Shown here: positions 34,781 to 43,184 of the stretch, in pieces | Numbering within the stretch: the stretch's first letter is position 1 | Layout: each line of letters opens with the position of its first letter | Assembly: GCA_951828515.1 (NCBI GenBank) | Contig: OX639992.1 | Location: 5,558,217-5,622,216, forward strand | Length of the DNA: 64,000 bases | Source: an uncultured Poribacteria bacterium | GTDB taxonomy: Bacteria > Poribacteria > WGA-4E > WGA-3G | Reading direction: 5' to 3' | The notes under the pieces: generated by a model | What the model saw: only the letters and a program-made list of their open reading frames with translations | What the model was told of the DNA's origin: nothing | The model's database searches: none | Program-made: the position numbers and the translations under genes

Positions 34781-34899
34781 TTATAGTAAAACCCATAATT
34801 AAGTTTACACTCTGTAATGCGGCGAGGTTAGGAAACCTCGCCAGCAATGTGGGTTTTGTGTTTTCAAGAGCGTGCAAGTATTTTCGGGCTTTACTATAA
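34781..34899. mobile_element. MITE-like element with TTATAGTAAA terminal repeats, copy 1
   Basis: Left end TTATAGTAAAACCC, right end GGGCTTTACTATAA: a 14-base terminal inverted repeat with one mismatch, 119 bases long. Flanking TA steps fit insertion at TA (IS630/Tc1 style, inference). Contains the palindrome GGCGAGGTT / AACCTCGCC. Nearly identical to 43065-43184; a diverged copy lies at 53508-53639. No transposase inside. Confidence 0.75.
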
Positions 34900-42253: not shown

Positions 42254-43051
42254 TTATTCGAGCACAAGTATTGTTAGTTTCAGATGCGCTCGAACGGCTT
42301 GACGCACTTCATTGCAGATGTGCATCGCATGCTGTGTATTGTCAGGGGTTGCTGAATCTCCCGGATAACGGGGATCCACTGCATACGCTGTGATTATTTT
42401 AAAGTCAGACTGCCACTGGTGCCAAACAGGCTGTGTAGGCACAATCAATCCCAGTAATTCTTCAAGATTATGCGTCCGTTGAACAGGACTGTTCGACTCT
42501 TGCAGCCAAGCTTTGAGATACTTTTCAATACACTGTTGTGCGTGGAAACAGATAATATCATGCAGGGGGTTTGATGCTTGCAGAAGTTGCTGGACAGCGG
42601 CATAATCGTTTTCAGCTTTCTCTATCCATTCCAGCGTCAATGGGTTCATGCCGTTCTTTTCCTTTTTGATAGCACTCACGTAAGAGGAGTTTCCAACCTC
42701 AATGCCAACTTGTGTTTTCTTTCTATTGTAGTGCGTTGTGGATTGATGAAGCACTTCGCCCTTTTCAGTGATCTCGCGAAGAAACCAATCGTTATATGAA
42801 ACACGATACGCAATTTCTTCCGGTGAACGTACCAACAAATCCATACCGAACCGGTATGAAATACGTTGTCGGATCTCTATAGCCTTGTTGATAAATTCCG
42901 ACTTCGGAACGTCCATCACGACAAGCATATCTACATCGGAATCTTCCGTAGGCGTGCCATACGCATAGGAGCCGAAGAGAATTACTTGGAGCGGTGCGAA
43001 TTTCCGCACGATGTCATTACATGTTGCTTGAATATCTTCCCGGGTAACCAT
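42254..43051 (-). CDS. Single-chain MNT-HEPN protein (nucleotidyltransferase fused to HEPN)
   Basis: 265 residues. N-terminal part (1-103) is a minimal nucleotidyltransferase: LFGSYAYGTPTEDSDVDMLVV with G27-S28 and D39-x-D41. A 30-residue linker follows, then a HEPN domain (from Met135): EWIEKAENDYAAVQQLLQASN, DIICFHAQQCIEKYLKAWLQ, THNLEELL and the C-terminal R250-x5-H256, which fits the HEPN R-x4-6-H pattern. In MNT/HEPN modules these are normally separate genes forming a toxin-antitoxin pair in which MNT modifies (AMPylates) HEPN. Here Met135 has its own ribosome site (AAGGA, ten bases before ATG 42649), so a free HEPN may also be made. AGGGGG precedes the main start; a MITE-like element abuts it. 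Confidence 0.85.
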   Translation of the reverse strand: MVTREDIQATCNDIVRKFAPLQVILFGSYAYGTPTEDSDVDMLVVMDVPKSEFINKAIEIRQRISYRFGMDLLVRSPEEIAYRVSYNDWFLREITEKGEVLHQSTTHYNRKKTQVGIEVGNSSYVSAIKKEKNGMNPLTLEWIEKAENDYAAVQQLLQASNPLHDIICFHAQQCIEKYLKAWLQESNSPVQRTHNLEELLGLIVPTQPVWHQWQSDFKIITAYAVDPRYPGDSATPDNTQHAMHICNEVRQAVRAHLKLTILVLE

Positions 43052-43064
43052 ACGAAACCCCCTT

Positions 43065-43184
43065 TTATAGTAAAACCCATAATTAAGTTTACACTCTGTA
43101 ATGCGGCGAGGTTAGGAAACCTCGCCAGCAATGTGGGGTTTTGTGTTTTCGAGAGTGTGCAAGTATTTTCGGGCTTTACTATAA
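43065..43184. mobile_element. MITE-like element with TTATAGTAAA terminal repeats, copy 2
   Basis: 120 bases, nearly identical to 34781-34899 (one extra G and a few changes), with the same inverted ends TTATAGTAAAACCC and GGGCTTTACTATAA. It ends 13 bases before the MNT-HEPN start and thus occupies its promoter region. Confidence 0.75.

Follow-up and report, generated by a model that had tools for sequence, protein, structure and literature searches.

A one-gene MNT-HEPN module of sponge-associated Poribacteria with a duplicated gene junction and a putative internal HEPN start

The gene at 42254–43051 on the reverse strand of the window (the whole 64,000 bp stretch analysed here) raises the question of whether two genes can be fused into one that still uses the translation start of the second. 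It codes for a nucleotidyltransferase (MNT, predicted antitoxin) and a HEPN domain (predicted toxin) in one chain, and an AUG with a ribosome site stands where HEPN begins.

The fusion gene and its relatives

The ORF codes for 265 amino acids with no internal stop. Pfam places NTP_transf_2 (PF01909) at residues 15–80 (44 bits) and HEPN (PF05168) at residues 141–254 (74 bits), while the score for NCBIfam MntA_antitoxin (NF047752) is 31.8 bits, below the curated cut-off of 60. The MNT domain (42746–43051; residues 1–102) is followed by a linker (42650–42745; residues 103–134) that is predicted to be disordered. The ATG of Met135 (42647–42649) opens the segment coding for a predicted free HEPN of 131 amino acids (42254–42649), which scores 76.5 bits when translated by itself; it and the fusion both pass the PF05168 gathering cut-off (22 bits). 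The sequence AAGGA (42660–42664) lies exactly 10 nt upstream of this ATG. The sequence-only reading had described two domains joined in frame by a linker, with Met135 and its AAGGA at the HEPN start; the description agrees with the sequence, and both the Met and its ribosome site recur over the homologous fusions presented below. Among named sources, the protein has its nearest relatives in Candidatus Poribacteria metagenome-assembled genomes (MAGs). Besides this gene, the source genome, a single contig of 5.85 Mb, carries four fused paralogs, a split pair (L006) and a decayed copy (L007).

Sixty relatives were searched, and 114 fused homologs more than 55% identical were recovered from genomes of the source genus; they are named subfamily A, to which the gene under study belongs. 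A second subfamily, B, about 30% identical, counts about 22 fused and about 10 split members in the source genus. Over both subfamilies this genus of sponge-associated Poribacteria carries more than 130 fused genes, most of which keep the internal start. Tandem arrays of two or three fused genes were observed at L098, L116, L209 and L210, and HEPN-only genes apparently without MNT at L055 and L056 in the source genus. Family f1 (genera g1 and g18–g20) has mainly long fused frames and the HEPN genes of other Poribacteria are mostly short. Four fused frames of a different, linkerless type are found in family f6. In the linkerless MNT-HEPN fusions L189–L192, from another family of the phylum than that of the source genus, the HEPN-start ATG directly follows the MNT C-terminus and is preceded by a strong Shine-Dalgarno (SD) sequence (mean −9.7). 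The existence of split forms in related families could suggest that the fusion is an artefact, two ordinary genes joined by an assembly or sequencing indel in the linker, an alternative that the sequence-only reading had itself raised. The linker is however in frame in all 114 fusions, spread over 35 genomes of which several are single-contig, so that an error of this kind has virtually no probability left.

A MITE-like element had also been proposed in the promoter region of the gene. The 120 bp element at 43065–43184 is short and non-coding, has terminal inverted repeats of 33 nt whose arms are 76% complementary, and gives at least 45 matches in the source genome, the traits of a MITE. Its edge is 13 bp before the fusion-gene ATG and the gene's own ribosome site is thus outside the element. 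A second copy in the window (34781–34899) is 97.5% identical. The element is real but, among the fetched relatives, it lies directly upstream of this copy of the gene only.

A duplicated overlapping junction

The split pairs L050 and L053 and the split genes of subfamily B have a HEPN ATG that lies over the 3′ end of the MNT gene, in the +1 frame. An example is the junction GTGCTTTATGAATCC, which reads VLYES in the MNT frame and MNP in the HEPN frame. HEPN of split relatives begins at the same Met as the HEPN part of the fusions, with a similar ribosome-site sequence. In the fused genes, a second copy of the junction is found 50–98 nt further on; the offset is 2 mod 3, so that the frame is restored, and the HEPN ribosome site and its ATG are copied too. 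The gene at 42254–43051 has a relic copy 1 (42740–42766, GAAAAGGGCGAAGTGCTTCATCAATCC; residues 96–104) and a copy 2 (42642–42668) in which the ribosome site and ATG of HEPN lie in frame, with a best self-similarity offset of 98 nt. These features give good support to the earlier suggestion of a fused gene boundary that kept its translation start.

The self-match offset expected from such a duplication is 3 × linker − 1, that is 2 mod 3. In a scan of subfamily A, the expected offset ranked first, alone or in a tie, for nearly all linker classes, with a mean self-identity of about 0.5 versus 0.25 at other offsets. Similarity between the two copies survives there only in a core of 20–30 nt. The subfamily B gene L153 matches itself at an offset of 74 nt with 54 of 74 positions identical, the upstream half nearly base for base. 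Judged by these self-matches, the duplication is clear in subfamily B, and older and more diverged in subfamily A; the shortness of the core still similar in A leaves a small chance that its linker arose by another insertion route. A repeat search at two loci did not report the junction duplication, which the direct offset scans did show. Since B has split forms in the source genus and A has split relatives in other families, the sequences imply at least two independent fusions by junction duplication. Fusion by plain loss of the MNT stop codon was also considered and is ruled out by the +1-frame overlap in split relatives together with the second junction copy.

Two further observations concern the junction itself. 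Copy-1 junctions of subfamily A (e.g., L091 and L049) still have an SD-like stretch and an out-of-frame ATG that opens a short +1 frame. A HEPN ATG lying over MNT C-terminal codons is also seen in other Poribacteria families and, apparently, in MAGs of Syntrophobacterales and Spirochaetes (L186–L188, L222, L226); the overlap looks old and general, since it is found beyond the source family.

We propose that the two ancestral genes overlapped, the HEPN ATG being placed within the last MNT codons, in the +1 frame, and the MNT C-terminus coding for the HEPN ribosome site. Tandem duplication of this junction over a short stretch, 2 mod 3 in length, then joined HEPN to the MNT frame and provided another ribosome site and ATG immediately before HEPN, as the sequences of both subfamilies show, more plainly in B than in A.

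The internal start codon and its ribosome site

The codon at position 135 is ATG in 104 of the 114 subfamily A fusions, GTG in five, ATA in four and ACG in one. A potential start codon (ATG or GTG) is therefore present in 109, and all four ATA genes have a GTG one codon upstream. The spacing of the KE-xxx-M segment is almost free of indels while the linker varies. The usage of AAG in KE is 75:4 at the internal site versus 11:37 elsewhere. The mean predicted SD energy at the site (n = 114) is −6.56 kcal/mol versus −4.80 ± 0.23 under reshuffling of synonymous codons within each gene; the corresponding values are −1.95 at other codons and −8.38 at true starts. The excess over this null persists when the set is thinned to 80, 46 or 24 sequences, and is weak with eight (p 0.025); note that synonymous z-scores overstate significance here because the sequences share ancestry. 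Subfamily B behaves likewise (−8.61 versus −5.36 ± 0.74). Separate HEPN genes have a mean SD energy of −7.0 at their starts, similar to the fused internal site (about −6.9 without L169, first read as a split gene, a reading that was dropped; it looks like a frameshifted fused gene). A column scan of 46 representatives places Met135 with its two neighbours within the five most extreme of 239 columns. The scan of all 114 unthinned sequences does not single out Met135 (14th of 240, with a similar score for a site 8–9 codons downstream) because shared ancestry inflates many columns.

The signal is not general. In the sister genera g18–g20, the SD energy at the internal site is −3.56 versus a null of −3.11 ± 0.47, that is, not above it, and 4 of 25 fusions have lost the start codon. 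The idea of an internal start common to the entire fused family was rejected on this ground; as read from these energies, retention of the site is a property of the source genus and of subfamily B. The lack of signal in the sister genera also argues that the retained site is not a mere by-product of fusion. The persistence of the fusion there without a ribosome site indicates that free HEPN is not always needed. In the source genus the internal start is conserved together with its ribosome site, as in genes-within-genes. Two other lines were not used as evidence. Valine at position 135 is always encoded by GTG, an argument set aside since a single mutation turns ATG into GTG, and local RNA structure is only slightly weaker at the internal site than elsewhere (−7.6 versus −9.0 kcal/mol).

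For the gene at 42254–43051, the predicted anti-SD duplex is −5.6 kcal/mol at Met135 and −11.4 at the annotated start. Some features speak against a retained start. The 10-nt SD spacing is slightly long, and Met135 is no more conserved than the HEPN residues that follow it. The last feature is what would be expected if the internal start were a relic, the fusion being the sole product and the site persisting by descent and by the usefulness of the KE and MNPLT residues. The same fused protein in genera g18–g20, with an SD signal not above null, fits this explanation too, as does the comparison of close pairs, whose synonymous change is not reduced at −5/−4 (pS 0.236, few sites). A relic accounts poorly for the synonymous bias towards SD in thinned sets, found independently in subfamily B, for the GTG next to ATA codons, and for the pattern of residues, which vary freely at −3 to −1 but not at −5/−4 or at the start position. 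We regard it as unlikely, though deserving attention, and favour a retained start: one gene probably gives rise to both the MNT-HEPN fusion and free HEPN translated from Met135 of the same mRNA.

Activity of the fused module and comparison with known systems

The GSX10DXD motif of MNT is kept, with G27, S28, D39 and D41 invariant in 114 subfamily A and 20 subfamily B fusions. The third catalytic Asp (residue 71), present in the gene under study, is His in 26 of the 114 subfamily A fusions, which may mark MNT domains with altered activity. The RX4-6H RNase motif was not found in HEPN: R228 has no His 4–6 residues after it and the conserved H194 is located elsewhere. Passages of PMC3710099 report an altered motif with a His elsewhere for HEPN-T proteins. 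Since RX4-6H is missing, toxicity of HEPN is only inferred. The pN/pS ratios are 0.12 for MNT, 0.25 for HEPN and 0.53 for the fast-evolving linker; by this measure, both domains are under purifying selection. The structure model (mean pLDDT 75; seven sequences) has two domains separated by a disordered linker, with pLDDT below 50 at residues 107–132 and a first HEPN helix from residue 137 onwards. A phmmer search of the PDB gave no match, whereas Foldseek at domain level matched the HEPN proteins 1wol and 1ufb and the MNT antitoxins 8xeo and 7bxo.

These data bear on whether the fusion is a toxin-antitoxin module at all, a question of function compatible with the presence or the absence of an internal start. 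MNT is the more constrained half, HEPN has no RX4-6H, the best Foldseek match by E-value is AAD(9), with a low TM score, and fused HEPN domains are proposed in passages of PMC3710099 to be mostly inactive. Another function is nevertheless rather improbable in our view: R228, Y229, H194, Q172-Q173 and E176-K177 of HEPN are conserved equally in fusions and split pairs, the domain matches are stand-alone HEPN proteins and an MNT antitoxin (8xeo), and the several variable paralogs and decayed forms resemble mobile toxin-antitoxin modules.

The closest characterized systems are the type VII HepT-MntA pairs of Shewanella (SO_3166/SO_3165; PMC7641770) and Legionella (PMC11586414), in which an MNT with GSX10DXD is likewise paired with HEPN and whose domain folds match those of the fusion (8xeo, 7bxo). 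HepT-MntA is encoded by two adjacent genes and the Poribacteria fusion by a single ORF, although its split relatives are two genes. The fusion differs also by its PF05168-type HEPN without RX4-6H. The characterized complexes have HEPN:MNT ratios of 6:2, 4:1 and 2:2 (PMC7641770, PMC11586414); as two of the three are HEPN-rich, the internal start could plausibly serve to supply additional free HEPN. MNT-HEPN pairs and fusions of HEPN-T (PF05168), the same HEPN family as here, are already listed in passages of PMC3710099, and such a fusion is reported for pAgK84 in a passage of PMC2701414. For HEPN-T fusions, the available passages of these two papers describe neither an internal start nor a junction duplication nor a fused gene with two products, and no HEPN-MNT gene with an internal start was found in the open-licence literature. 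The Rpn genes-within-genes toxin-antitoxin systems (PMC10327210) also make a full-length protein and a C-terminal product from an internal start, the latter being predicted in the Poribacteria fusion. The internal product of Rpn is the antitoxin, while here it would be the predicted toxin, the long form bearing both.

Our preferred reading, which we hold to be reasonably probable, is a one-gene MNT-HEPN module born by frame-restoring junction duplication, with a retained internal HEPN start that provides HEPN in excess of MNT. The tethered MNT would keep HEPN in check, and might do so by nucleotidylation both in cis and in trans, with the invariant Tyr229 as a possible target. More tentatively, and with slightly more doubt than confidence, a toxin-antitoxin-like pair may have collapsed at least twice by frame-restoring tandem duplication into genes that make a fusion and a free toxin, the reverse of Rpn.

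The family offers a readable and recurrent path by which two overlapping genes become a single gene still bearing the start of the second, and its split, fused-with-start and fused-without-start forms can be compared within one bacterial phylum. Production of free HEPN would make it a one-gene toxin-antitoxin module whose short product is the toxin; in that case, annotating a single protein for each fused gene would overlook half of what it produces.
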